A stretch of DNA of 64,000 nt from assembly GCA_022842935.1 (NCBI GenBank), contig JALHOP010000004.1, forward strand, positions 372,001-436,000. The letters run 5' to 3'. Both the position numbers and the translations under genes were made by a program. How positions within the stretch are numbered: the stretch's first letter is position 1; each line of letters opens with the position of its first letter. Origin of the DNA: Myxococcota bacterium. GTDB lineage: Bacteria > Myxococcota > XYA12-FULL-58-9 > JALHOP01. Below the pieces are notes generated by a model, which saw only the letters and a list, made by a program, of their open reading frames with translations, was not told where the DNA came from and searched no databases. Shown piece after piece: positions 3,043-63,476 of the stretch.

Positions 3043-3151
3043 CAGGCTCTCTCTATCCCAGGCGTCTATCCGTCAAGCTCGGGCAGTAGCGCTCAGCGAC
3101 GCGCGATCGTTTGCGCTGCTAGTTGCCGATATTTTGCTCTTTCGAGAGACG

Positions 3152-3172
3152 GAGGGCCGCATCGCCGCCCTC
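3152..3172 (-). terminator. Weak hairpin between SUMF1-like gene and pbpC
   Basis: GAGGGC (3152-3157) and GCCCTC (3167-3172) form a 6-bp stem with a 9-base loop, about 80 bases past the stop of the SUMF1-like gene. No T-run follows, so it could be an attenuator, a processing stem or chance in GC-rich DNA. The rest of 3043-3248 shows no gene. Confidence 0.2.
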
Positions 3173-3248
3173 ACAGAGCGGGCGCCCCGCAGCACACCAG
3201 GGCGCTGTGGCGGTATGCGCGACCGTGTGAGTTACAGCGTGAGTGGGC

Positions 3249-4247
3249 CTACGGCGCCTTGACCGTTCTCACCGGCCTAAACCCGTACCCAGCACCGCCA
3301 CTGTTGGCGGGATACTGAAAGCGGTGCGTCGCCCGTACGTAGATTGCGTTTTCCTTGTAGCTGGCGCCCCGCATCACACGATCTTGGCCCTCCGATTCGA
3401 GGGCGAGCCCACCGATGACGGGGTCGGTCATGTCTTCTGTGTAGGGCTTGAACTGGTAGGCGTCCCAAACCCATTCCCAGGCGTTACCAAGGATGTCGTA
3501 CAGACCGTAGGCGTTCTTCTTTTTCTTGCCGACGGGGTGCAGCTTGCCTTCACTGTTGTCGTAGTACCAGGCGATCTCACCGGGCTCGCCATAGCGCGGA
3601 TCATCAAGACCACCACGCGCTGCGAGCTCCCACTCGGCGTCGGTGGCCAGCCGGTAGCCGGTACACTCGTAGCCCTTGGGCCATTGAGCGAGGCCACCCT
3701 TGAAGGAGTAGCACGGTTCCAATTTCTCGCGCTTCGAGAGCAAGTTCAAATAGTCGAGCGCCTGACGCCACGTGACACCTGCTGGGGTCTCCAACCCGTT
3801 CTCTGTCTCGAACGATGAGGGGAGCGCACCCGTGACGAAGTACCACTCGCCGAAAGTCACCTCCGTCGCTTTCATCGCGAACGCGTGGGTAAGCGTTACC
3901 GTCGTCCCAAAGACCTCTTTGGCGTCGTCCTTGTTTTCGTCGTTGCCTCGCGCGCCGATTGCGAAAGGCCTGGGTGTGATGGTCACGAAGTCACCGCCGG
4001 ACTTCGGCATGGCGCTCGGCCGCGGCGGTGGCTTGGGGCTGCGTATCGCCTTCGACTTGTGCATGCCCGGAACCGCGCCGCAGCCTTGACCCGGCTGATA
4101 GAAGCCGCCGCCGCTCAGGCATTTCATGCAAGCCTCGCGCTCGCTGCCCAGCGGTTTACATCCGCTGTAGCTGCTGACGCTTCCAGCGAGAGCTTGCGAT
4201 GCTATAGCGGATGCGACGATCGCAGCACCAAGGCAAGCAAGTTTCAT
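3249..4247 (-). CDS. Secreted SUMF1/formylglycine-generating-enzyme-like protein
   Basis: A 332-residue protein with a signal peptide (MKLACLGAAIVASAIASQALA) and a C-terminal SUMF1/FGE-sulfatase fold. Hallmarks are EVTFGEWYFV, GYRLATDAEWELAARGG, YGLYDILGNAWEWVWD, VMRGASY and YGFRPV at the end. The region between (about 23-85) carries CKPLGSEREACMKCL and a proline-rich stretch. Real FGE oxidises a sulfatase cysteine using two active-site cysteines near the RGGS/GFR segment. I see no cysteine pair there, so a non-catalytic or different role (as in PvdO/EgtB-like relatives) is more likely. The start at 4247 is supported by AAGGAG 8 bases upstream. It sits 67 bases downstream of the alpha-2-macroglobulin gene and upstream of pbpC, suggesting an envelope-linked operon. 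Confidence 0.88.
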   Translation of the reverse strand: MKLACLGAAIVASAIASQALAGSVSSYSGCKPLGSEREACMKCLSGGGFYQPGQGCGAVPGMHKSKAIRSPKPPPRPSAMPKSGGDFVTITPRPFAIGARGNDENKDDAKEVFGTTVTLTHAFAMKATEVTFGEWYFVTGALPSSFETENGLETPAGVTWRQALDYLNLLSKREKLEPCYSFKGGLAQWPKGYECTGYRLATDAEWELAARGGLDDPRYGEPGEIAWYYDNSEGKLHPVGKKKKNAYGLYDILGNAWEWVWDAYQFKPYTEDMTDPVIGGLALESEGQDRVMRGASYKENAIYVRATHRFQYPANSGGAGYGFRPVRTVKAP

Positions 4248-4314
4248 GAACGTAACTCCTTGAGTATTGCGAATGCGCGCTTCGAGCGATTTAGGCGCTC
4301 GTCTCCCGCTGCAA

Positions 4315-7300
4315 CTACTTGGCTTTGGCGGGAGCCTCGAGCTTCGGGAGCACCTTGAGCTCGCGACCCTCGGCGCGCCCGCGGATCTCTGGCTGGTACA
4401 TGCGTTCGACGATGGTGCCGGGCGCATAGTAGCTGCCCGGTGTGGTCGCGCGGGTGAGGTACTTGAGCTTCACCGGCCAACGTCCGCCGCCGCTGTTCCA
4501 CAGATAGCGGAACGAGTAGTCGGTGCGGTCGTCGCGCATCTCGCTATAGCGGCTTCGCCACCATGACCAGTCGTTGCCGCGTCCGGTCATCACCTCTTCC
4601 ATCTCCTTGTCGGCGGTGGCGAGGTTGGTGTCGACCGGCTCGAGCCCTGCCGGCAGCGGATCGCTCACCACGACCATGCGCCCGTCTTCGGCGACGTCGA
4701 TGGCGAGGCTCACCATGACGTAGTCGCCGACGCGCACGCTGTCGCCAATCGGCTCGCCCTTCTTGTTGGTGTAGGTGCGCGTGACGGTGAAGCCTTGTGA
4801 CTGCTGCGGCAGACGCGCCGTCGCTGGATAAGCGAAGCTGAAGAAGCCGCCAAAGTAGAGCGGGCCGTTGCCGCTGTTGGTGAGCACCAGGTCGTAGGCG
4901 GGCTTGGTCTCGAGCTTGTCGCGCTTGACGCTATCGACCTTGTCGCCAATCTTCTTGGCGTCGACGAGCGACTCGGCTCCGAGCTTTGCGGTCGCGACCG
5001 GCTGGCGTCCTTCGAGCTTCATGATGCTCGCCGCTTCCGCCAGGGCGAGGAGCGTCTGGGTTGTCGCTTGGGTCGTGTAGTAGTCCTGCTCGCCGTCCAT
5101 GTTGACGAGGCCACGCACGATCATCGGCACCTTGGCGTCGGTCGGCGTCACCTGGAGCATCGCGCGCAATGCGAGCGCGGTCGAGCGCTGGCCCGAGTCC
5201 CAAGCCCACCAGTAACGCTGGGGGTTGTCCGCTGCGAAGGTGACGATGCCGTTCTTCTCAGCCCCGGCGCTTGCGATCTCGGTGATGAGCTTGGTGACCT
5301 TGGTCTCGCCCGCCCCTGCGCGCTTGTGGATGGCGCGCACAAGCTCGGTCTTCGAGAACAGCGGCATACTCGAGCGGCCCTCGAACATGGCGTTTTCTCG
5401 CGCCTGGTCGAAGCGGCCGAGCTCAGCGAGGACACGCAGAGCACTCGCCATGCCAGCGTTACCGTCCCAGCTCTCGCCGTCCGCCTTCATGGACGCGAGC
5501 TTGTTCTGCAGATACTGCGCTGCTGGATCGACGGTCGTGTCAGGGACGCTGTAGCCGTATTTGCGCGCGGTCAACATGGCGTCGAGGGTAAACGCGGTAA
5601 GGTAGGGATCGGACCCGTGGCCGCAGCCCGGGTAGTAGTCGAAGCCGTTGTCGCCGCATCGGTACTTCGGCACGAGCTTCACCCACTCATCGACCCAGCC
5701 TTTGATTTTCTCGCTCGGGATGGACGCAAAGCCGAGCTTCTCGGCGAGCTCGCGCACGGCGATGAGCGGCATGACCTTGCTGGTGCGCTGCTCGAGGCAT
5801 CCATACGGATAGCCCACGAGGCCCCGCATACGCTCTTCTAGCGATGCCACGGGTAACCCGCTCATGTTGAGCTCGAACTTGGTCGGCCGCGCCCCCTCGG
5901 GCAGCGTCAGCGTATGCGTCACGCTACCGCTATCAAGGACACCGGCGATGCCTACGGTCTCGGAGGGCTGCACCCTCTTGACTGGCAACGTGAGCTGGAC
6001 GCGGTCGGCGAACGTCTTGCCGTTCGCCTCCATAGTCGCCTTGAAGATGATCTCCGAAGCGCCCTCGACGTCTTTGGCGGCGATGTTGAAGCGGAACGGC
6101 TCGGTCGCCTTCCCCGCCACCGCGCGCGTCAGCGACTTTTCGCCTTTCACGTTGAAGAGCTTGTCGTCGATGGCCTCGATGGCGACGGTTACGGCCGAAC
6201 CCGCAGGCAACATATGGTTGACTACGACCCCCGCATCGATGCGGTCGCCTGGTCGCACGAAGCGCGGCATAGCCTGTCGCATCATGAGCGTCTTGTTGAC
6301 CTTGAACTCCGCCGAAGCGGACCCAAATTGAGCCCCCTCGGTGACCGCGACTGCCATCACCCGATAGGTGGTCAGGGTGTCGGGCACCTTGAAGCTGTGG
6401 CTCGCTTTGCCGGATGCGTCGGTGACGAGGCTACCGACCCAGGTCGCGACCGGATTGAAATCCTTGCGTAGCTCCGTGTCGTTGTCGCCGCCGCCGCCAC
6501 CGCCATCTTCTTCGCCCTTGGGTGTCGGCTGGATGAACTTGCGACGGCCAAGCACGTGCATGCGCGTGTCGAGCGACAGGACCGAATACATACGCTCCTG
6601 GAAGAGGTCCTTGACGACATCTGGCGTGCGGTACCCGGTGAGCATGAGGACGCCTTCGTCGACCGCGAACAGGTTCACTTCCGCCGACGTCGCTTTGCTC
6701 TGGTAATCGGTGGTGTTGACGGTGACGGCAACTTGCTCTCCCGGTTCGTAGAACGGCTTGTCGGAAGCAAGCTGGACCTTCAGGACGTTGCGCGTCGGCT
6801 TCACGGCGACCTTTGCATAGCCAAGGGCGTACGCCGGCTTGTCGCGCTCCGGGTCCGGGGACAGGCCGCCTTCTGCTTTCACGCGGCCTCGCACGACGGT
6901 CGCCGAGATCCAGACGTTGGGCGCCCATTCGGGAGGAACTGGGATGTCGACGACGCCGTTTGTGCCGAGCGGCATCACCTTGCGCCAGAGGATGTCTTCG
7001 CGCTCGACGGTGATCATCGCCATGGCGTCCTTGAAGGGCGACGCGATGGCGATACGCGCGGTTTCGCCAGCCTCGAGCTCGGGCTTCTCGGGCATGATGG
7101 CGACCTGGTTGCCGCCGTCACTGCGGCCCGAGTAGTAGTCGGGGTCGCCAGTCACCCAGAACCAGGACGAGGCACGCACTTCACGCTTCTTTTCGTCCTT
7201 GGCGGAGACGCGTAGGCGCAGCGAGCCGCCGTGTTCAGGGGTGTACTGGCAGGTCAATATGCCGTTAGCGTCCGTCTTGCCGGTGCAGATCGCCGGCATC

Positions 7301-10167
7301 TTTTTGCTCTCGTGCTGGTAGTCCCAGTACATGAGGCCGCCGGGGCCTTTGCGCTTCACCGAGTACCAGCGTTCCTGCTCGCCGTTCACCGCGACTTCGA
7401 CGCCTCCAAGCGGCTGGTCGGTGGTCGAGACGACAACGACATCGTAACTGAACAGCTTGCCCTTCTCGCGCAGATATCCCTTCGGATCGATACCCACGTA
7501 AAAACTCGCTGGGTGCACGCTTACCGTCGTTTGGCTGCTAACGCTCTGGCCGCTGGCATCGTCCACCGTAGCGGACACAATGAGTTTCTCGAGGCGCGCG
7601 TTACTCGACGCGTCTTTGAGCACGCGGTCGAAGGTGAAGCTGCCGGTGTCGTCGAGGGTTGCGTCGCCCTCGTCGAGGAACTCGGCGTAGTCGGAGCGCT
7701 CGTCGTACCAGGAGTGGTAATCGTAGTCGCTGAACTCGGCTTGCGGGAAACGCTTGCTGTCGAAGCTCGAGCTCTGTCGTCGGAGCGTCCAGTGCGTCGT
7801 GAGGCCGGCTGCCGGGGCGCCGAAGAGATAGTCGGCGTTGACGCGCGCGTGCATCTTGGCGCCGCGCATGTACTGCGGCTTGTCGGTCGCGACCGTGACC
7901 TTCATCTCGGCTCGACGGAACTCGCCGACGCGGAAGCTCTCGCGCAGCATGTCGTCCCCGACCTTGGCTCGGAGCTGATATTCGCCGACGCGGGCGTCTG
8001 TTGGCACAACGAAGCTGCCGCTGATGGTGCCGAACTTCGAGAAGGCCTGCTCGCTCGTGAAGAGCGCATCCTGAGCGCCGCTCTCGTCGTACATGTCTTC
8101 TTCGAAGACCGCCGTGGCGGTCACAGCCCCGCTCGGCGTGGTGAATCCGTCGGGCGACTGGCGGCGCGCAACGACGCGGTAGTAGACGGTTTCACCTGGG
8201 CGGTAGATGCCGCGCTCGGTGTAGATGCTGCCCACGAGCCGTGCCCCGCTTTTTGGCGCGCTGCTGCCCCCGTTACGAAACTTCGACCAGACGAAGGCCT
8301 CGTCGTCGCCCGCTTTGGCGGTCACGAACACGCCACGCGACTGAAGATTTGGTACGCCTCCATTGCGCGCGACCTCAGCGGCGCGAACGACCGCGACACC
8401 TTGGGCGTCTGTTTTGGCGTGGGCCGCGGGCTCGCCCAGGTCTTTCGCCTTGTCGTCGACGATGTAGATGTCGACCTCGGCGTTGGCGATGGGTTTCCCG
8501 TCAGAGAGCTTGGCCGCCATGACGACGAGCTGCTGCGTCGAATACTTGGCCGACAGACCGATGTCGGTGACGTTGAGCAAGCGCAGGACCGGGTTACTGA
8601 CACGCGAGCCCTTCTGGTCGCGCGGCGTATTCTTGAGCACCACGACACCGCCAGCGCCCTTCAAGTAGGGGTCGAGCGGTACAGTGACGGTGGCCCAGCT
8701 CTCTCCTTGAGGCACGTTGATGCTGGTCGCCACGGCGTTGGGGATCTTGATCTCCGTATCGTCGGTCGCGCCCGGGAAACGCTGCGAGCTCTCGTTGCAG
8801 ATCTCGGTGCCCGCTTCTTCGTCCCAGTAGCAGTCAGACTCGTAGTATGCGTAGTAGCTCTCGGACAGCCACCACGGCAGCTCTTCCCAAGCCACCTGGT
8901 CGGCGAGATCTTGCGCGGCGATGATCTTCCAGGCTTCGCGGAACGGCAGGCGCGCGCCCTCGACGTCGAGCTTCGCGGTCTTCCAGACCATCTCTTCGTG
9001 CGCTGGCTTCTCAGCACGCTCGAGCACATTGAACATCGTCTGATGCGCAAAGCGTGGCTCGGCATCGCCGGTCTTCAACGTGAACGCTTTGGGCTCGGCG
9101 AGCGCCTGACCAAAAGCATCGATGATGCCGCCACCGACCGTCAGCGTGTATTCGGTGTGCGCTTTGAGGGCGGGCGTTGGCTCGATACGCACGATACGGC
9201 TGCCGGTCGCCTGCCCCGAACAGTTGAAGCTCTCCACGGCCGGCACGATGGCAATCTTCGCGAGCGCTTGCTGGCAGTCGACCGGCGTCGAGAATTCCAC
9301 CGCGAGAGTTGATGGCGGCACGCACAGGTCGCACGTCGGTCCGTTCAGGATGGTGAGTGCCGGGTACGTGGCCGCCTGCAAGGTCTGCGCATCACTGGTC
9401 GCGCTGCCCGCTCCGCTAACGGCGACGCCGAGTCCCTTGGCTAGGTTGACCTTGAGATTCGCGTGCTCGGGCCAAGGCGAGCTCGGGGTAATGAGGACGC
9501 GATCGGCGGTGTCGCCCCCAGGAAAGGTGAGGGTCACGGGCAGCGTCTTGGCAGTGCCGCCACTCTGCGGCTCACCTTGGACGGTGATGAGCGACTTGAG
9601 GGTCGCGACCTTCTCGGGATAGCGCAGCGTCAGCACGAGGTCGTCGTAGAGGCCGAGCAACGAGACCTGTGCTTCTCCGTCACTTACCATCTGTCGGGGC
9701 GGCGCCCCGTCCGCTTTGGCGGCCTGCCACTCGTCTTTCGTGCGGGCGACCTTCTCGAGCTCGGCGCCACCGTTCTTCTCACTCGTGAAGGCGAAGTTGT
9801 AGCTGCTCTTCAGGACGGCCTTACCGTCGAAGGTGCGCAGGCCGCTGTCGATTTCGACCTCGACCTTGGTCGCCGGCGGTACGGGATCGGTGAACGCGAA
9901 CGCCATCGAGTTCGGCGTCGGAAAGCTCACCTTGCCGGCCAGCTTCGGAGTGATGTCGATGTCGAGCCCCTGCGCCGAGGCGGTGGCAGCATCCGGATCG
10001 ACGATGGGCCGATTGAAATGCACCTCGAAGTAAGTCGGCAAGCCGCGCAAATCACCCGTCGGCGACGCGTGGGTGACCTCGAGAGACTCGCCAGAGTGGC
10101 ACGCCGAGAAAAACGAGCCAACCAGACAGACAACGATACCGGCCCGCAACACGCGAAGCAGATGCAT
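4315..10167 (-). CDS. Bacterial alpha-2-macroglobulin, lipoprotein (YfhM-like)
   Basis: A 1950-residue periplasmic lipoprotein. The start at 10167 gives MHLLRVLRAG and a lipobox FFSAC (Cys23); longer upstream in-frame starts lack a signal peptide. The order is N-terminal macroglobulin/Ig-like domains, bait-region segment (GERGIYRPGETVYYRVVA begins the MG2-like part), A2M domain (YRVMAVAVTEGAQFG), the thioester GYPYGCLEQRTSK with Cys1457, a helical thioester domain and a C-terminal receptor-like domain. By homology the thioester traps proteases that reach the periplasm by covalent coupling after bait cleavage, with PBP1C repairing cell wall. It is the first gene of the minus-strand run A2M, SUMF1-like, pbpC. 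Acidic Tyr/Asp-rich loops (for example YYAYYESDCYWDEEAG) are unusual. Confidence 0.95.
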   Translation of the reverse strand: MHLLRVLRAGIVVCLVGSFFSACHSGESLEVTHASPTGDLRGLPTYFEVHFNRPIVDPDAATASAQGLDIDITPKLAGKVSFPTPNSMAFAFTDPVPPATKVEVEIDSGLRTFDGKAVLKSSYNFAFTSEKNGGAELEKVARTKDEWQAAKADGAPPRQMVSDGEAQVSLLGLYDDLVLTLRYPEKVATLKSLITVQGEPQSGGTAKTLPVTLTFPGGDTADRVLITPSSPWPEHANLKVNLAKGLGVAVSGAGSATSDAQTLQAATYPALTILNGPTCDLCVPPSTLAVEFSTPVDCQQALAKIAIVPAVESFNCSGQATGSRIVRIEPTPALKAHTEYTLTVGGGIIDAFGQALAEPKAFTLKTGDAEPRFAHQTMFNVLERAEKPAHEEMVWKTAKLDVEGARLPFREAWKIIAAQDLADQVAWEELPWWLSESYYAYYESDCYWDEEAGTEICNESSQRFPGATDDTEIKIPNAVATSINVPQGESWATVTVPLDPYLKGAGGVVVLKNTPRDQKGSRVSNPVLRLLNVTDIGLSAKYSTQQLVVMAAKLSDGKPIANAEVDIYIVDDKAKDLGEPAAHAKTDAQGVAVVRAAEVARNGGVPNLQSRGVFVTAKAGDDEAFVWSKFRNGGSSAPKSGARLVGSIYTERGIYRPGETVYYRVVARRQSPDGFTTPSGAVTATAVFEEDMYDESGAQDALFTSEQAFSKFGTISGSFVVPTDARVGEYQLRAKVGDDMLRESFRVGEFRRAEMKVTVATDKPQYMRGAKMHARVNADYLFGAPAAGLTTHWTLRRQSSSFDSKRFPQAEFSDYDYHSWYDERSDYAEFLDEGDATLDDTGSFTFDRVLKDASSNARLEKLIVSATVDDASGQSVSSQTTVSVHPASFYVGIDPKGYLREKGKLFSYDVVVVSTTDQPLGGVEVAVNGEQERWYSVKRKGPGGLMYWDYQHESKKMPAICTGKTDANGILTCQYTPEHGGSLRLRVSAKDEKKREVRASSWFWVTGDPDYYSGRSDGGNQVAIMPEKPELEAGETARIAIASPFKDAMAMITVEREDILWRKVMPLGTNGVVDIPVPPEWAPNVWISATVVRGRVKAEGGLSPDPERDKPAYALGYAKVAVKPTRNVLKVQLASDKPFYEPGEQVAVTVNTTDYQSKATSAEVNLFAVDEGVLMLTGYRTPDVVKDLFQERMYSVLSLDTRMHVLGRRKFIQPTPKGEEDGGGGGGDNDTELRKDFNPVATWVGSLVTDASGKASHSFKVPDTLTTYRVMAVAVTEGAQFGSASAEFKVNKTLMMRQAMPRFVRPGDRIDAGVVVNHMLPAGSAVTVAIEAIDDKLFNVKGEKSLTRAVAGKATEPFRFNIAAKDVEGASEIIFKATMEANGKTFADRVQLTLPVKRVQPSETVGIAGVLDSGSVTHTLTLPEGARPTKFELNMSGLPVASLEERMRGLVGYPYGCLEQRTSKVMPLIAVRELAEKLGFASIPSEKIKGWVDEWVKLVPKYRCGDNGFDYYPGCGHGSDPYLTAFTLDAMLTARKYGYSVPDTTVDPAAQYLQNKLASMKADGESWDGNAGMASALRVLAELGRFDQARENAMFEGRSSMPLFSKTELVRAIHKRAGAGETKVTKLITEIASAGAEKNGIVTFAADNPQRYWWAWDSGQRSTALALRAMLQVTPTDAKVPMIVRGLVNMDGEQDYYTTQATTQTLLALAEAASIMKLEGRQPVATAKLGAESLVDAKKIGDKVDSVKRDKLETKPAYDLVLTNSGNGPLYFGGFFSFAYPATARLPQQSQGFTVTRTYTNKKGEPIGDSVRVGDYVMVSLAIDVAEDGRMVVVSDPLPAGLEPVDTNLATADKEMEEVMTGRGNDWSWWRSRYSEMRDDRTDYSFRYLWNSGGGRWPVKLKYLTRATTPGSYYAPGTIVERMYQPEIRGRAEGRELKVLPKLEAPAKAK

Positions 10168-55477: not shown

Positions 55478-55951
55478 CTTTGTCGCCACGTCACGGCCGA
55501 TTCGCGCTCACTCCCACTCGATTGTTAAAAGTCACATAACCCATTGATATTACTTGCAAGTATTTTATGGTGGGGAGAAATTGCCGACGCAGAGGCCGTC
55601 AAAATACTACGCTTTTGATTTTAAAGAGAAAATCGCCGGAAAATATTTTTTGGCGTTTCGCCAACTATCGGAGCCAATCGGCCGATTTTCGATCCCACGG
55701 TGCTAAATCGCACACTCGATTCGATCTCAAAAAGTACCGTCAGCACAAGCTACCACGCCTTACTGGAGCGATCCATCCCCGCCAACCAAAAGAGCCGGCC
55801 TGCTCCATTGGCATTTGGTCACGCCATCATTCATGCAAGTCCTATTTCGATCAGCATCGTTGCGTTGGATGACGAGAGCAACCGAACTCTGCGCCGTAGA
55901 TTTCCACTTATGTTCATGTTATGTTCTGAAGGAGTTGCTAAACGGCAATAC

Positions 55952-56035
55952 CGTCCCGGAAAGGACCAATTTTGGGACCGTTTGCAGGTAGGATGAATTC
56001 AGATGCTTGCGTGTCCCGAAACTCTGTCCCAAAAG
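55952..56035. promoter_or_regulatory. Candidate recombinase binding (res-like) repeat cluster
   Basis: Related 11-base units sit just upstream of the recombinase start: CGTCCCGGAAA (55952, plus), CGGTCCCAAAA (reverse strand, 55970-55980), TGTCCCGAAAC (56012, plus) and TGTCCCAAAAG (56025, plus). They resemble the TGTC... half-sites of Tn3/gamma-delta resolvases. TTTTGGGAC (55970) and GTCCCAAAA (56026) form a perfect inverted pair. They could be binding sites for the enzyme and control its promoter. Confidence 0.45.
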
Positions 56036-56041
56036 AAGCTT

Positions 56042-56614
56042 ATGAAAATAGGCTATGTGCGAGCTTCGACCGACGATGAGGACCTGAACCAGCAGCGCCG
56101 AGCCTTGCGCCTCGCTGGCTGCAAGAAGATTTTTGAGGATCGGACTTCCGGCACATCAACCAAGCGCCCAGGCCTCGACGAGGCGCTGGAACAGTGCGGC
56201 TCGGACGGTGTTCTCGTGGTCTGGAAACTCGACCGCCTCGGCCGCTCCCTTTCTCACCTCATCACCATTGTCCAGGAACTCGGCGACAAGGGCTGCGGCT
56301 TCCAATCCCTCTCCGAGAACATCGACACGACCACCGATGGCGGTCGCGGCGTGTTTCACCTAATGGGCTCCCTCGCCGAATTTGAACGGGCGCTGATCGC
56401 AGAGCGCACCAAAGCCGGACTGGCCGCGGCGCGCATGCGTGGTGTCCAAATCGGGCGCCGGAAGGCGATGAATACCGAACAGGTGAGACGCGCGCGCGCC
56501 TTGCTGGAGGCTGGCGAGCGTCCGGCAGATATTGCCCGCACGCTGCAGGTCGGGCGATCGACGCTCTATCGCGCACTCGACGTTCAACATGCCAGGGGAG
56601 GCCAAGCTGCATGA
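56042..56614 (+). CDS. Serine recombinase (resolvase/invertase family)
   Basis: A 190-residue small serine recombinase. The start at 56042 gives MKIGYVRASTDDEDLNQQRR. The catalytic Ser9 lies in RASTDD, with the active-site arginine cluster in VVWKLDRLGRSLSHL, and MGSLAEFERALIAERTKAGL (E-helix). The C-terminal HTH is RARALLEAGERPADIARTLQ with VGRSTLYRAL. Members resolve or invert DNA at short sites and often repress their own promoters. The stop overlaps the methyltransferase start (ATGA, 56611-56614). Confidence 0.95.
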   Translation: MKIGYVRASTDDEDLNQQRRALRLAGCKKIFEDRTSGTSTKRPGLDEALEQCGSDGVLVVWKLDRLGRSLSHLITIVQELGDKGCGFQSLSENIDTTTDGGRGVFHLMGSLAEFERALIAERTKAGLAAARMRGVQIGRRKAMNTEQVRRARALLEAGERPADIARTLQVGRSTLYRALDVQHARGGQAA

Positions 56615-58395
56615 ACGTGGTGCTGTCGAAACCGCTTCGCAAGCCCAAGTCTCTGGACCTAGAGCCGATCCGTATTGAATTGACCCGTGCGCGGATAATG
56701 GCGCGCGCGTGGTCTGAAACTATCCCCGAAACACGGCGCACTGGCCACGCTGCGAGGTTCGCGCGCGCCGCCCTGGAGATATTTGCCGAGGAAGTCGCGC
56801 CGGGGGTGAAATTGAGCCCACCCTTCGCAAATACGAAAGGCAAGCTGGACGCCACGGCGGAGCAACTAGCCGACTCCATGGGCCGCCTTGCGGCCGCTCT
56901 GCCCATCACGGAGGGCTGCAATGCCCTGACCAGCCTCTACACGACCCTCCTGCCCGGCAAGGAGCGCAGCTCCCTCGGGGCGTTCTACACTCCTGCCGCA
57001 TTGACCCAGCGCCTCCTTGATCTGGCAACAGAGGGCGGGGTTGACTGGAAAACGGCGCGTGTGCTCGATCCCGCCAGCGGTGGAGGCGCTTTTCTTCTGG
57101 AAGCGGCCGCAAGGATGCGCGCCAGCCTGGCAGGCAGCGAGCCCGCCTTCATCCTCGCGCAGCTCGGCACCCGCCTTTCCGGCATGGAGTTGGACCCGCA
57201 CGCAGCCTCTCTCTCGCAGGCCGCCTTGGAGATCACTCTTGCCGACCTCGCACGGGCCAGCGGCCGCGATGTGCCTGTATTCGTCAAGGTTTGCGACACG
57301 CTGGAAGAGCAGGCGCATGCGATCTACGACCTCGTTGTCGGCAATCCGCCCTATGGTCGGATACAGCTGACGGCCGCGCAGCGTGCCCGCTATGCTCGTA
57401 GCCTTTACGGCCATGCCAATCTTTATGGCGTGTTCACGGACATAGCGCTGCGATGGACACGGCCCGGCGGCGTCATCGCTTACCTCACGCCGACGAGCGT
57501 GCTGGGCGGGCAGTATTACGCTGCGCTCCGGAAATTGCTGGCCGAGGAGGCTCCACCCGTCGCCATCGACTTCGTCCATGCGCGCAAGGGCGTCTTTGAA
57601 GACGTGCTGCAGGAAACGCTTCTCGCCCTTTATCAGAAGGGCGGCGCCCGCACGCGATTCCAAGTGCATTACCTCAACGTCGACAGCGAGCGGCAGGCGC
57701 GGCTCACCAAGAACGGCAAGGTCGGCCTGCCCGCCGACGCGACCGCACCCTGGCTCGCGCCGCGGGAGCCCGCTCACGTCGCGCTGATCGCCGCGGCCGA
57801 AGATCTGCCGTCTCGGCTGGCTGACTGGGGCTATGAGGTTTCAACAGGCCCGCTCGTATGGAATCGCTTCAAGCCACAAATGCGCGCCAGAGCCGGCCGG
57901 GGCCTCCATCCCCTCATCTGGGCGGAAGCTGTGACCGCCGACGGCCGTTTCGTGTTCCGCGCCGACAAGAAGAACCATGCTCCCTTCTTCAAACCTGAAA
58001 AGGGCGATGAATGGCTGGTTGTCGACCGGAGCTGTGTGCTGGTCCAGCGCACCACTGCTAAGGAGCAGCAGCGCCGCCTCATCGCGGCTGAGCTGTCGCG
58101 GGAATTCATAGAGACGCATGGCGGCGTTGTCGTCGAGAACCACCTCAATATGGTGCGCGCGGTGGGCGTGCCGAAGGTCTCGCCGGCCGCCGTCGCTGCC
58201 GTGCTGAATAGCGAGACGATTGATCAGGTGTTCCGCTGCATCAGCGGCAGCGTCGCTGTTTCCGCCTTCGAGTTGGAAGCCATCCCTCTGCCCCCGGCTT
58301 CCGCCATGGCCCCGATCGAGCAATTGGTCCAGCGGGGCGCGACGCGAGCCGCAATAGAGAAGGCCCTGCGCGGCGCCTATGGACTTAAGGCATGA
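56611..58395 (+). CDS. N6-adenine DNA methyltransferase (Type II, BsuBI/PstI-type partner)
   Basis: A 594-residue N6-adenine methyltransferase. An N-terminal helical region precedes ALTSLYTTLLPGKERSSLGA and FYTPAALTQRLLD. SAM motif I is VLDPASGGGAF (151-161) and the catalytic NPPY lies at 245-248 (VVGNPPYGRI). A C-terminal target-recognition part holds NHLNMVRAVGVPK. In PstI/BsuBI systems the methylase modifies A in CTGCAG; the same target is likely but not proven. Its start overlaps the recombinase stop and its stop overlaps the endonuclease start, both by ATGA. Confidence 0.93.
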   Translation: MNVVLSKPLRKPKSLDLEPIRIELTRARIMARAWSETIPETRRTGHAARFARAALEIFAEEVAPGVKLSPPFANTKGKLDATAEQLADSMGRLAAALPITEGCNALTSLYTTLLPGKERSSLGAFYTPAALTQRLLDLATEGGVDWKTARVLDPASGGGAFLLEAAARMRASLAGSEPAFILAQLGTRLSGMELDPHAASLSQAALEITLADLARASGRDVPVFVKVCDTLEEQAHAIYDLVVGNPPYGRIQLTAAQRARYARSLYGHANLYGVFTDIALRWTRPGGVIAYLTPTSVLGGQYYAALRKLLAEEAPPVAIDFVHARKGVFEDVLQETLLALYQKGGARTRFQVHYLNVDSERQARLTKNGKVGLPADATAPWLAPREPAHVALIAAAEDLPSRLADWGYEVSTGPLVWNRFKPQMRARAGRGLHPLIWAEAVTADGRFVFRADKKNHAPFFKPEKGDEWLVVDRSCVLVQRTTAKEQQRRLIAAELSREFIETHGGVVVENHLNMVRAVGVPKVSPAAVAAVLNSETIDQVFRCISGSVAVSAFELEAIPLPPASAMAPIEQLVQRGATRAAIEKALRGAYGLKA

Positions 58396-59456
58396 GCCTC
58401 CCGTCGCTTCTCCCTTGGAACGAAATCCATGCCCGTCTACCGGTGATTTTTCCGGAGGGATCGGCCAACCGCGATCGCTCGATTTGGGAGATTTCGGCGA
58501 AGACCATCTTCGTTATGATTTACGCCGGTGCTGTGGAAGGAACGGACAACTGGATACGTCCGGATCAGGTCACTCGCATGACCGACCAACAGGCCGGCCA
58601 GACCGGCGACGACGCGCGGCTGGAGTGGGCGAAGGCGTCGATCCGGCCGAGCAAGGCCGACGTGCCGGGCCGCTGGTACGCAGTAAACACGCGGGAATCG
58701 ATCCGCGACGACACGATCCGATATGCGCTTATCCAGAACGGTGCGGTGATCGAGCGGCCTGGATTATCGACGACATCGCCGGCCGGGCGGTATGCGCTGC
58801 AAGCCGATTTCGCGGCGCTGCTGACACCCGATCTGGACGAGGCAACATTCATCGCAAAGGCGGCCGCCTGGCGGGCAAAGCACCTTAACGCCGGCGCGCT
58901 TGCCCGTATCGCTATCGTCCGCAAAGGCGCGGCCGGCGGCGGCGAGTATGAGCTCGTTACTTTTCCGAACGGCGAAACCCGCCGGATGACTACTGGCCCC
59001 AGCGCGGACATCTCAAAGGCCGTTATCGAGGTCTTTGCGCCGAAATTCCTTAAGAAGCCTGGCGTGATCGCCTTGAGCGAGAGCGGTAACAAGGTTGTCG
59101 CGCGGGATGACGAACTGGCCAAGGCGATCGGCCTGACGATCCCGGCCGACAAGAGCCTCCCCGACATTGTGCTGGTAGACCTGGGTCCCGCCCATCCCCT
59201 GCTGGTCTTCGTCGAGGTGGTACACACCGATGGGCCAGTGAATGAAGCGCGCAAGACCGCTCTGCTCCAGATTTCGGAGGGTGCCGGTTTTCCATCCGAG
59301 CACGTTGCCTTCGTGACCGCTTATCTTGATCGCGCTGGCCAGCCCTTCCGCAAGACGGTGAGTAGCCTCGCCTGGGGTAGCTACGCGTGGTTTGCATCTG
59401 AGCCGGACAACCTCATCGTCTTCAGCGGCAAGTCGCTTGCGATCGAGGGCAGCTGA
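58392..59456 (+). CDS. BsuBI/PstI-type Type II restriction endonuclease
   Basis: A 354-residue protein. The C-terminal half matches the BsuBI/PstI endonuclease core: LPDIVLVDLGPAHPLLVFVE, then VVHTDGPVNEARKTALLQIS (PD...E catalytic pattern), FVTAYLDRAGQPFRKTVSSL, and AWGSYAWFASEPDNLIVFSG. The N-terminal half has WIRPDQVTRMTDQQ (a family segment). PstI and BsuBI cut CTGCAG. Overlaps the methyltransferase by four bases, so the modification enzyme is translated first. This is a full Type II restriction-modification pair. Confidence 0.93.
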   Translation: MSLPSLLPWNEIHARLPVIFPEGSANRDRSIWEISAKTIFVMIYAGAVEGTDNWIRPDQVTRMTDQQAGQTGDDARLEWAKASIRPSKADVPGRWYAVNTRESIRDDTIRYALIQNGAVIERPGLSTTSPAGRYALQADFAALLTPDLDEATFIAKAAAWRAKHLNAGALARIAIVRKGAAGGGEYELVTFPNGETRRMTTGPSADISKAVIEVFAPKFLKKPGVIALSESGNKVVARDDELAKAIGLTIPADKSLPDIVLVDLGPAHPLLVFVEVVHTDGPVNEARKTALLQISEGAGFPSEHVAFVTAYLDRAGQPFRKTVSSLAWGSYAWFASEPDNLIVFSGKSLAIEGS

Positions 59457-59557
59457 ATCTCTCGGCCGGCTGCGTTAGGCAAAACCTGTGTTTCTTGCTG
59501 CTAGAGATGAAACCGATAGAAATGGAGATCAGCTAATCGACCTCCGGGGGGAGCACA

Positions 59558-61468
59558 GTGAAAATAAGCCAAGTCCGAATTGAAAACTTTCGATGTGTTC
59601 AAGCCCTTGACGTGGATCTAGAAGACACGACGGTTTTTATCGGCGCCAACAATACCGGAAAGACTGCGATACTCGAAGCAGTCCGGATCGCCCTATCCCG
59701 GCGCTGGGGAAGGCGCGGCACGGGGTTTACCGAGCACGACGTTCATTCGCCCGGTGAGACGCACGATCCCAAGACGGCGCCTCCGGTTCGTGTGCTTCTC
59801 CGTCTGGAAGAAAAGGCGCCCGAACCTTGGGATGCCGACATGGTCGCGGCCCTGGATGATCTAGTCGTATTGAGTGATGCTGGCCGGAACTTGATTTCGC
59901 TGCGCGTAACTTGCGAATGGAACCAGGAGTCTGAGGCTTTCGAGCCAGCGTGGGAATTCCTTGACGCCGCCGGCCAGCCCCTCACGCAAAAATCCCAACG
60001 CGCCACGAACCTGTCAGGCTTCTTCGCTTACGCTCCTTTGTTCTACTTGGCCGCCCTCCGTGACGCCGCCGACGAGTTTGGACCTCGGTCCGCGCTGTGG
60101 GGACGGCTACTCAAGTCCATTAGAATACCGGCCGCTATCGAAGCAGACGTGCAGACGACCCTCGACTGTCTCGATAGCAAGCTACTCGCTGCCGACCCAC
60201 GACTTGCTGATATCGCGAAGACGATTAGCCAGGCAGCCAAAATAGCCGTTGGTCAGAGCGAAGGCGACGCAAGGCTACGAATGCTGCCGATGAACACGTG
60301 GGACCTGATCTCGCGTGCCGCCGTAGTGCTGAAGAACGAAGAACTCCGCCCCTGGCTCCCTCTTGATCACCATGGTCAGGGTCTTCAAAGTCTGTCTGTC
60401 ATTTTCCTTTTCCAAGCTGCGGCGTTTCAGCAACTTGAAGAGGAACAGCCTGGCACCGAACCCATCTTTCTCTTGGAAGAGCCGGAAGCGCATCTTCATC
60501 CGCAAGCCGCGCGGACTCTGTGGGAGCGCGTTAGCGAGCTGCCTGGACAGAAGCTCGTCACGACCCATTCGCCCTACTTCGTTCAGAACGTGCCCTTGCA
60601 CAATCTGCGCCTCGTCCGTTTGCAAGATGGACAAACCGAACTCGCCTTCATGCCTCGGTCGGTTGCCTCCGACTTGCCATGGAACGACGGCGTTACACAG
60701 TTCGCCGCGCACCAAGGCACGATGCTTGTCAAAAACCCTGCCACAGGAAGGATTGACGCTACCACGTGGTTCGATCCGACGATTGCTGAGAAACTGGCTG
60801 GTTGCTTCAAAGCGAATGGCGACCAAGCGGCAATTGCTGGAGCGATTTCAGACCTGCGCCACCGCTCGCGCGGCCTTGTGACGCCGCAAGAGGAGCACGA
60901 GCTTTCTTTCCTTGGTCGTCGCGTCCGGGGCGAGATTTTTTTCGCGCGCCGTTGGGTCCTCGTTGAAGGGCAATCCGAGTACGTATTGTTGCACGCGATC
61001 GGTCGAGCCTTGGACTACCCCCTCGATCGTCACGGCGTCGCCGTCATCGACTTTCAAAACAACGGCGACGCCGCAATCTATCCGGCGCTGGCGACATCCT
61101 TCGCGATTCCGTGGTGGATGATTACGGATGGAGACGGTGAAGCCGTAAAATTTCGTGCGCAGCTCATTAAGCGTGGCTTTGTGGATGCTGACCTCGAGGG
61201 GCGTGTCTCAACGCTCCCACCCCCAAACGACCTGGAAAGCCAACTGATCGCTGACGGACACGAGCAACGACTACGCGCGATTCTGGCTGAGGCAACAACC
61301 AACTCTGCGCTCACATGTCCCCAGGACGAATTTGTAAAGCGACTGAAAAACGAAAAGATCGCCTGCGTGAGCCGCTTGGGGCTTCAAATCGAAACCAACG
61401 CCGACCTAGCATTAAAAATGCCGAAGCCGTTCGTGGACCTCGTTCAATCTCTGAAAGGAGGTGCCTAA
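59558..61468 (+). CDS. gajA: Gabija GajA-like OLD-family ATPase/TOPRIM nuclease
   Basis: A 636-residue OLD-family protein starting at GTG 59558 with GGGGGGAG upstream. An ABC-type ATPase head carries Walker A GANNTGKT (29-36), the signature GQGLQSLSVIFLF, Walker B LLEEPEAHLHPQ and the switch THSPYFVQNVP. A C-terminal TOPRIM domain has RRWVLVEGQSEYVLLHAIGR (Glu470) and WMITDGDGEA (Asp524/Asp526). Together with a downstream UvrD-like helicase this is the Gabija (class 2 OLD) arrangement, in which GajA is a DNA nuclease controlled by nucleotide levels during phage infection. It is somewhat longer than the roughly 580-aa B. cereus GajA. Other OLD systems are possible. Confidence 0.85.
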   Translation: MKISQVRIENFRCVQALDVDLEDTTVFIGANNTGKTAILEAVRIALSRRWGRRGTGFTEHDVHSPGETHDPKTAPPVRVLLRLEEKAPEPWDADMVAALDDLVVLSDAGRNLISLRVTCEWNQESEAFEPAWEFLDAAGQPLTQKSQRATNLSGFFAYAPLFYLAALRDAADEFGPRSALWGRLLKSIRIPAAIEADVQTTLDCLDSKLLAADPRLADIAKTISQAAKIAVGQSEGDARLRMLPMNTWDLISRAAVVLKNEELRPWLPLDHHGQGLQSLSVIFLFQAAAFQQLEEEQPGTEPIFLLEEPEAHLHPQAARTLWERVSELPGQKLVTTHSPYFVQNVPLHNLRLVRLQDGQTELAFMPRSVASDLPWNDGVTQFAAHQGTMLVKNPATGRIDATTWFDPTIAEKLAGCFKANGDQAAIAGAISDLRHRSRGLVTPQEEHELSFLGRRVRGEIFFARRWVLVEGQSEYVLLHAIGRALDYPLDRHGVAVIDFQNNGDAAIYPALATSFAIPWWMITDGDGEAVKFRAQLIKRGFVDADLEGRVSTLPPPNDLESQLIADGHEQRLRAILAEATTNSALTCPQDEFVKRLKNEKIACVSRLGLQIETNADLALKMPKPFVDLVQSLKGGA

Positions 61469-63387
61469 TGACCCCCGAACTCGAAGCGATCCTTGCAAGC
61501 CTCAGTCCAATCCAGAAGGAGGCGGCGGTATGGGGGGATGATTCGGTACTTGTGCTTGCGGGACCCGGATCTGGCAAGACGCGCGTCCTCACCTCTAGGA
61601 TTGCTAAAATCCTCGACGACAGCCGCGGCAAGAACTTCCGCATTCTCGCGCTGACCTTCACGACCAAGGCAGCAGCAGAAATGCGAGAGCGCGTTGAGTT
61701 ACTCGTGCCGGGGTTGACCGAGCGTGCCTTCATGGGAACCTTTCATGCGTTCTGCACGCAGATGCTTCGCCAGCACGGCTCGCACCTCGGAATGTCTCCC
61801 GACTTCGCCATCTTTGATCAGGATGCCGATCGGGAGGCGCTGCTGAGCGATGCTCTTGCAGTCGCAGCGAAGACGGAAGCAGTTGACCCAGACGATGTTC
61901 GCTGGCTCAAAACGATCGATCAGTTAAAATCGCGCCTTGTCGTACCAGAAAAAGCGGCCTCTCAATTTCGAGACGCGCGGAGTGGCGAAGCCATCGCGCG
62001 CGTCTATCAAATTTATGAGCAAGCCTTAACTGAACGCAATTCGATCGACTTCAACGGTCTGATCCTTGGCGCCTGTCGACTTCTGCGAGACGTTCCCGGG
62101 GTGGCGGAACGGACCAGACGGACATACCCGTATTGGCTGATAGACGAGTTTCAAGATACAACACCAGCGCAGTATCGCCTCATCCAGCTCGCCGCTGGCG
62201 ACGGGTTCAAAAACCTATTCGCCGTGGCAGACGATGACCAGATCATCTACCAGTGGGCGGGGGCAAGTTATCGGCAAATAGAAAAGATGCGTGCCGATTT
62301 CCGGCCCGAGTTGATTCAGCTCGTAGAAAACCACCGGTGCCCGCCAGAGATCGTCGGCGCAGCCAACCTTCTCGTAGCCCACAACACCTTTCGTACGCCG
62401 GGAAAGAAGCCCCTTGTGGCAGCTAAAGCTGCGATGCCGAAATCGATCAGTCTGCGCCTCTTCGAGTCAGATAGTGCGGAAAGCGAGGGTTTGGCGACTG
62501 AGATATCCGAAAGCGAGCCGTCGATATGGGGAAAAACCGCCGTCCTCGCTCGTACCCGGTCGCTCCTCGTTCCCATTCAGCAGGCGTTGCAGTCGAAGGG
62601 AGTCAAGGCGGTAATCGCGCAGCGGCGAGACCGTTTCATTTCGCCGCAATTCACCTGGCTGCAGGCCTGCCTGGACCAAGCCCTGCGGCCCACGGACATT
62701 CGCGTCTTCAAAGTGCTAGTAGACGCGGCCAATCGTGTCGCCGGGCAGGACTTAGACCCCGCGATCCTAGCCGCCGAGGCAGAGGCTGCAGGATTGTCGA
62801 ATGTCGAGCATTGGGGAAAAACAAGCGTCGCCCTGAACAATGCCATTGGATCGAAGCTCGGTGCCTTCGCTGTTCGTCTGGCACAATCCCGCACAGCGTG
62901 GCGGCAGGTCGTCAGAGAAGCCATCCCCGTACTCGTCGATTCAGCGACCAGCGCTGAGGGCGTTGTCAGCGATGCGGCAGACGATAAGGCTGCGTGGGAC
63001 ATATGCGTGAAGGAGATCCGGGCTGAAAAAGGTGCCGATATTGATCTGGACGAGCTGATTCAAGGACTGGCGCTGCGCTCCAAAGAACCACCGCGTGATC
63101 CCTCGACCGTTACCCTCCTGACGGTTCATGCCTCGAAGGGACTGGAATTCGATATCGTCTATGTTGCGGGACTCGCTGAATCCGTCATGCCGTCGTGGCA
63201 GAGCGTCAACAAAGGTGGCGCGTCCCCAGAAATGGAAGAAGAACGCCGCAATTGTTTCGTTGCAATAACACGGACTCGGGAGCGCTTAATTTTGTCCCGA
63301 GCAGCAAACTATCGGGGTTGGTCGAAAGGCCCCTCGCGCTTCCTTTCGGAAATGGGCTTTTCTGGAGAGATTGAACCTCTATTATAG
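61468..63387 (+). CDS. gajB: Gabija GajB-like UvrD/Rep-type helicase
   Basis: A 639-residue SF1A helicase. The ATG at 61468 overlaps the GajA stop (TAATG), with AAAGGAGG upstream. Motifs are Q region LSPIQKEAA, Walker A AGPGSGKT (31-38), LTFTTKAAAEMRERVE, the DE box DEFQDTTPAQYRL, VADDDQIIYQWAGAS, HRCPPEIVGAAN, LTVHASKGLEFDIVYVAG and ITRTRERLILSRA. In Gabija GajB senses DNA ends and relieves GajA inhibition. GajB is usually near 500 aa; this longer one keeps full 2A/2B-type domains and may be an active helicase. Confidence 0.85.
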   Translation: MTPELEAILASLSPIQKEAAVWGDDSVLVLAGPGSGKTRVLTSRIAKILDDSRGKNFRILALTFTTKAAAEMRERVELLVPGLTERAFMGTFHAFCTQMLRQHGSHLGMSPDFAIFDQDADREALLSDALAVAAKTEAVDPDDVRWLKTIDQLKSRLVVPEKAASQFRDARSGEAIARVYQIYEQALTERNSIDFNGLILGACRLLRDVPGVAERTRRTYPYWLIDEFQDTTPAQYRLIQLAAGDGFKNLFAVADDDQIIYQWAGASYRQIEKMRADFRPELIQLVENHRCPPEIVGAANLLVAHNTFRTPGKKPLVAAKAAMPKSISLRLFESDSAESEGLATEISESEPSIWGKTAVLARTRSLLVPIQQALQSKGVKAVIAQRRDRFISPQFTWLQACLDQALRPTDIRVFKVLVDAANRVAGQDLDPAILAAEAEAAGLSNVEHWGKTSVALNNAIGSKLGAFAVRLAQSRTAWRQVVREAIPVLVDSATSAEGVVSDAADDKAAWDICVKEIRAEKGADIDLDELIQGLALRSKEPPRDPSTVTLLTVHASKGLEFDIVYVAGLAESVMPSWQSVNKGGASPEMEEERRNCFVAITRTRERLILSRAANYRGWSKGPSRFLSEMGFSGEIEPLL

Positions 63388-63476
63388 GACCGCTTTGCTC
63401 CCCTCCACATCACGGAACCGGGTCTACGCGGTCAGCGTCGTTCTCGCAAGATAGCGTAGTGGCTGGGAGAATAGAG

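Follow-up and report, generated by a model that had tools for sequence, protein, structure and literature searches.

A standing question about restriction-modification (R-M) systems is how they can enter a new cell and not kill it, and the answers so far have come mainly from C proteins and from methylase autorepression. In the window analysed here, by which we mean the whole 64-kb stretch of DNA from a Myxococcota bacterium, a methylase (M) and an endonuclease (R) of the BsuBI/PstI family lie directly behind a gene for a small serine recombinase, and the question is what a recombinase does at the head of such an operon. The reading that we favour, and hold to be reasonably probable, is that the window carries a res-recombinase-M-R operon in which a captured resolvase and its res site autorepress the operon and can still resolve multimers. 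The resolvase would thus probably act as an on/off brake besides its role in recombination, through predicted binding and repression at its own promoter.

Layout of the operon and identity of its genes

The preliminary description had the recombinase, methylase and endonuclease overlapping as ATGA twice, and the ORF coordinates place these overlaps exactly where it did, at 56611-56614 (recombinase/M) and 58392-58395 (M/R). The R-M pair consists of an endonuclease with the BsuBI_PstI_RE domain plus its N-terminal domain, adjoining a methylase that matches Eco57I and N6_Mtase in Pfam, and PADLOC agrees on the type of system. The closest solved structure to the endonuclease is that of SdaI, which we take to recognise CCTGCAGG. 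A recombinase stands immediately 5' of a BsuBI/PstI-type M-R pair in 20 loci (19 of the 105 untruncated loci surveyed, and the Aeromonas plasmid L142), and since so many loci share the arrangement, the adjacency is not due to chance. The possibility that homologous R-M pairs never carry such a recombinase is thereby answered, and the earlier claim survives it. In the first two of the three recombinase lineages described below, all 17 recombinase-to-M junctions that were read have a -4 overlap, as ATGA or, in three of them, GTGA, and the M-to-R overlap is also -4 in most members. The third lineage deviates, with the Shinella recombinase overlapping M by more than 4 bp and M starting 10 bp downstream in the Aeromonas plasmid. 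Where the ATGA overlaps are present, they would couple translation of M to that of the recombinase, and translation of R to that of M.

Table 1. Features of the operon, its upstream region and the surrounding island (window coordinates unless a contig is named)
Feature	Coordinates	Strand	Remarks
Island left end	55508-55522	-	15-bp guaA 3' remnant (I-E-W-E-stop); shared from here in L024, L025
res site I	55952-55979		28-bp inverted half-site pair, presumed crossover site
Candidate core promoter TTGCGT-17-CAAAAG	56007-56035	+	putative start ~56042 (leaderless); hexamers read by eye
res site II	56012-56034	+	two head-to-tail half-sites, 13-bp step, overlapping the candidate promoter
Recombinase	56042-56614	+	small serine recombinase (resolvase/invertase family), 190 aa, ATG start
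N6-adenine DNA methyltransferase (M), BsuBI/PstI system	56611-58395	+	Pfam; PADLOC MTase_II 2.7e-235
Restriction endonuclease (R), BsuBI/PstI family	58392-59456	+	Pfam; PADLOC
GajA, Gabija	59558-61468	+	PADLOC GajA 2.7e-245; separate from the R-M operon
GajB, Gabija	61468-63387	+	2e-238; start MTPEL as in L025
Intact guaA, same genome	C21:1833-2771		adjacent genes, named by eye: tyrosine integrase, AlpA-like

The recombinase belongs to the small serine resolvase/invertase family, having a catalytic domain and a C-terminal HTH in about 190 residues, with the Tyr/Arg/Ser set and the Arg pair, and its Pfam matches to Resolvase (PF00239, 1e-43) and HTH_7 (PF02796, 3e-9) are both above the cut-offs. 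Its fold is settled by homologous structures, the closest being the phage Mu invertase Gin, followed by the Tn3/gamma-delta resolvase. An alignment to Gin and Tn3 resolvase finds its catalytic residues intact, and Y5, R7, S9, R42, D64, R65, R68, R116 and R122 are invariant across 19 recombinases. As judged from omega values of 0.03-0.22 in nine pairs, similar to those of M and R, the recombinase is under purifying selection. In the recombinase tree it clusters with plasmid and Tn3 resolvases, and its nearest plasmid relatives outside R-M loci are resolvases of Tn3 transposons and plasmids at about 52-56% identity. The likeness to a C protein that was first proposed therefore has to be given up: a short XRE-type HTH was expected and Pfam returned no XRE match and a Resolvase domain instead, the protein being a resolvase with a res site and not a relative of the small C proteins of XRE type. 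As a separate observation, the recombinase of Sphingomonas endophytica (L084) reads KLDCLSRS at codon 65 vs KLDRLSRS in its relatives, replacing a conserved catalytic Arg; the rest of the locus hardly differs from L082, and to judge from this codon the enzyme may be a natural catalytic mutant.

The res site and the candidate promoter

Upstream of the recombinase gene, a pattern search found the half-site BGTCCCRRAA four times (55952+, 55970-, 56012+, 56025+) and nowhere else in the 64-kb window. A bare count of four is not rare, 1.5 being expected in 64 kb, and the telling part is the order and position, an inverted pair followed by a direct pair within 83 bp. Site I of this lineage was missed by a general inverted-repeat search and found only with the half-site pattern; it recurs at the equivalent position in L025, L029 and L045, and with a different sequence in the sphingomonad lineage, and it is imperfect in some relatives (L047, L029). 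The second lineage has an identical site I/site II layout built on the half-site TGTCAGAA (GTCAG.. vs GTCCC.. here), and the distance from site I start to site II start is 60-61 bp in both lineages, their recombinases sharing only about 45% identity. The Sin res site likewise consists of site I and a head-to-tail site II within 86 bp (PMC2428073), and the putative res of the window looks Sin-like in its sequence, with an inverted site I and a direct site II in about 86 bp, 5' of the gene. The resemblance extends to the Sin/beta-type resolvases generally, with their total of about 85 bp, the gene beside res and the Ser9 nucleophile, whereas the window's recombinase is nearer in sequence to Gin/Tn3-type enzymes and its res unit leads an R-M operon. 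The third site of the three-site res of the Tn3/gamma-delta type was not found, the four half-sites making up two sites only.

Site II overlaps the candidate promoter in both lineages, despite their different half-sites. In each, a -35-like hexamer (TTGCGN or TTTACA/TTGCRN) lies 5' of site II, and a CARAAT-like hexamer follows 17 bp past it, inside the second half-site of site II; the hexamers are conserved in L025, L047, L029 and L045 and matched in the second lineage. A consensus promoter scan did not call this candidate, which is weak by consensus. Nevertheless, on its conservation, the transcription start of the operon is probably at or near the recombinase ATG, and the message may be leaderless. 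A longer recombinase ORF is open from an ATG at 56003, but among the relatives compared the 39 bp between this ATG and that at 56042 vary at first codon positions and not mainly at synonymous ones; ATG 56003 is probably not the start, since this interval appears to be kept as DNA, namely site II, and not as codons.

These arrangements allow the favoured mechanism to be spelled out. The captured unit would be a resolvase together with its two-part, Sin-like res site, placed 5' of a BsuBI/PstI M-R pair. Resolvase dimers would occupy site II, which straddles -35 to -10, together with site I some 60 bp further upstream, and this occupancy would repress the operon's own promoter. In a newly entered cell, the three genes would all be on until the resolvase builds up, after which expression would settle at a low level. 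The retained catalytic site and crossover site I would mean that multimers or cointegrates of the carrier replicon could still be resolved. There is precedent in Tn3 resolvase, which represses transcription from its res site (PMC7157771). An elaboration that we regard as improbable is that the operon responds to the state of the replicon, res-res synapsis in a multimer or cointegrate altering promoter occupancy and thus shifting restriction and modification; if true, a single switch that follows copy number or multimer state would serve both multimer resolution and post-segregational killing.

The same upstream region bears on the idea that the R-M system is phase-variable through inversion of a promoter segment by the recombinase. 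Its nearest solved structure is that of an invertase, Gin, as such a role would have it; however, the tree places the recombinase among plasmid and Tn3 resolvases, the layout of site I plus site II is that of a resolvase, and the half-site search found only one site I in 64 kb and no inverted second crossover site. We consider inversion barely credible, and an invertible promoter is rejected for the 64-kb window for lack of that second site.

Occupants of the position ahead of the methylase

If the recombinase serves as a controller, the position that it occupies should be of interest in relatives of the R-M pair. The gene immediately 5' of M was classed in the 105 relatives whose upstream region is not truncated, with Pfam run on representatives. 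Resolvases fill the place in 19, HigA-like XRE proteins in 11 and other ribbon-helix-helix (RHH) or XRE proteins in 15, and 60 have no recognised controller, the last figure counting against the controller reading. Other DNA-binding proteins than resolvases thus hold the position in 26 of the 105, and from the gene content of these loci the site 5' of the methylase appears to be an exchangeable controller slot. Among the loci that carry no resolvase, the methylase nearest to the window's group is that of S. aerolata L014, which is 86% identical and is preceded by a ribbon-helix-helix gene, the DNA homology to the window starting 33 bp inside M. The control role put forward in the preliminary description is to this extent well grounded at the level of sequence, because the half-sites overlie the only plausible operon promoter and because HigA-like and RHH regulators fill the slot in relatives.

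The histories of the two genes were compared by means of trees. In the methylase tree, the resolvase state requires five changes, of which at least three are forced by strong branches, and the coupled recombinases make up three lineages in the tree of recombinases. One origin for all of them is ruled out (p-AU 3.6e-44), and a single clade is likewise rejected for the first two lineages (1.3e-7) and for the first and third (0.018). The third lineage, from Shinella and Aeromonas, precedes two different methylases. On these trees, resolvases entered the slot separately in at least three lineages.

It may still be asked whether the M-R pair merely inserted behind a resident plasmid resolvase that only resolves multimers, as a passenger or plasmid-stability module in which control of the R-M genes was never selected. 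Resolvases are very common on plasmids, which speaks against a controller, since some adjacency of resolvases to R-M genes is then to be expected. Plasmid L138, which lacks M-R, offers an empty-site comparison with L064: the two share the resolvase and the gene downstream of it, and in L064 M-R fills precisely the space from the stop of the resolvase to the point at which the shared sequence resumes. Moreover, close relatives of the sphingomonad resolvases lead other cargo (a C5-methylase with Vsr and an endonuclease, a C5-methylase alone, a XamI-type system and a RelE-type module), and the catalytic residues are retained. Set against this are the 26 relatives with other DNA-binding genes in the slot, the repeated captures with a 4-bp overlap arising in two lineages, and the fact that the unit is intact in the window on a chromosomal island, where a need for dimer resolution is not obvious. 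We regard the passenger explanation as possible but rather unlikely. The homology in these cargo comparisons extends, for most pairs, from roughly the left edge of site I to where the recombinase gene ends, so that res and resolvase together can be described as a portable leader unit.

One further locus, L059, has two copies of site I (104-131 and 3565-3592), 3.46 kb apart. Between them lie an XRE gene and one for an AAA ATPase, the latter resembling an RloC-type defence gene. Recombination between the two copies is doubtful, since by our reading their central dinucleotides differ (CT and GA).

Some of the slot regulators other than resolvases have features of their own, palindromes being found by inverted-repeat search in several of their promoters. 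In L015, L016, L026, L028, L032 and L033, a conserved palindrome TGTAAAG-N5-CTTTACA lies some 60 bp upstream of the HigA-like gene and is likely the operator of this controller. In another class of controller, RHH_B, all eight loci (L041, L042, L048, L049/L050, L055, L062 and L079) have CTGCAG, the PstI/BsuBI target, with the first site 35-39 bp 5' of the controller start codon. The expectation is 0.056 per 120 bp, and the count in loci without a controller was 0 of 60. This placement suggests a methylation-sensitive operator at CTGCAG in the RHH_B branch.

Known systems, mobility and the guaA island

That R-M genes occur near recombinases is already known, and close precedents exist in ccd-ResD, in Tn3 toxin-antitoxin modules and in SGI1-type islands. 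A PstI isoschizomer of Rhizobium leguminosarum, Rle39BI, was reportedly described by Rochepeau in 1997 with a resolvase/invertase-like ORF and termed transposon-like; we know of no control role for it. ResD of the F plasmid is a tyrosine recombinase encoded after the toxin-antitoxin genes, whereas the window has a serine resolvase that is first in the operon, ahead of R-M. The two are alike in having a resolvase gene within an addiction-type operon, and ResD (D protein) is, in the account of it given by a later source, both repressor and resolvase (Lane 1986, cited in PMC7157771). Tn3-family transposons also place stability genes at a resolvase-repressed res promoter, but these are toxin-antitoxin genes, not a methylase-endonuclease operon (PMC7157771). 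On SGI1-related mobile islands, the BsuBI/PstI R-M family lies beside a resolvase gene, a likeness of gene arrangement; the sections of that report that we draw on treat the genes as backbone variation and do not describe coupling, res anatomy or control (PMC9035990). In PsaI/PanI, too, R-M genes are near a recombinase (PMC12294265). As in the C-protein systems Kpn2I and Esp1396I, a small DNA-binding gene lies 5' of R-M and would be expected to set expression after entry, but C proteins are XRE-type and act with C-boxes, unlike the resolvase and res of the window. In the literature examined, we found no account of R-M operons headed by a resolvase whose res overlies the promoter, nor of an exchangeable R-M controller slot. 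If control by the resolvase is true, it would extend the idea of a resolvase as a transcription factor besides a recombinase, and would tie plasmid multimer resolution to post-segregational killing. The question of resolvase control over neighbouring stability genes has been raised (PMC7157771), and the window's operon would be a clean test case; as the slot appears exchangeable between resolvases, HigA-like and ribbon-helix-helix proteins, one M-R pair can be tested under different controllers.

The other role first suggested for the recombinase was mobilisation, the enzyme excising or inserting the R-M cassette by site-specific recombination. Homology from cassette to cassette begins at the left edge of site I, even between cassettes with unrelated left flanks, and the flank that L076 has in common with L019 stops just within site I, the outcome expected of a crossover at that place. 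However, the L019/L063 junction lies 26 bp outside site I, and resolvases of such a type act on directly repeated sites within one molecule (PMC9943657). Neither the window nor the island sequence up to the contig end yielded a second res site, and because the window has a single res site, there is nothing for it to recombine with; excision of the cassette by a flanking second res is rejected for this sequence. Mobility is accounted for here without the serine recombinase, because the guaA island carries a tyrosine integrase, and mobilisation by the resolvase, as first suggested, is in our view very improbable.

The island is recognised by a duplicated guaA 3' end and an integrase by guaA, its ends lying on contigs C4 and C21, which are not physically joined, with the motif AAAAGTACCGTCA at both. 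In L024, a Betaproteobacteria MAG, 4515 bp (3121-7635) are 100% identical to window 55512-60026, where the L024 contig ends, pointing either to a very recent transfer or to two bins of one metagenome. In L025 (Mesorhizobium), identity is about 91% over 55869-63434, a stretch that takes in Gabija, and another homologous piece begins at 55508. The DNA left of the guaA remnant differs from the window's in both, and the remnant itself varies between genomes (GAGTGA or GAATAA); separate integrations fit, since the flanks differ and the remnant varies. A copy of the cassette was not found in the 58 nearest genomes searched, with only 8 genomes of the class available for comparison, and the R-M cassette is thus, as far as visible, foreign to its host. 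The Gabija pair, GajA with a TOPRIM domain and a UvrD-like helicase GajB (Pfam, PADLOC), starts 102 bp after R. Over the island as a whole (window 55508 to the end of L127, plus C21:1-1831), the R-M and Gabija genes are accompanied by HipA-like, HNH endonuclease and AbiEi-like genes, these last three named by eye.
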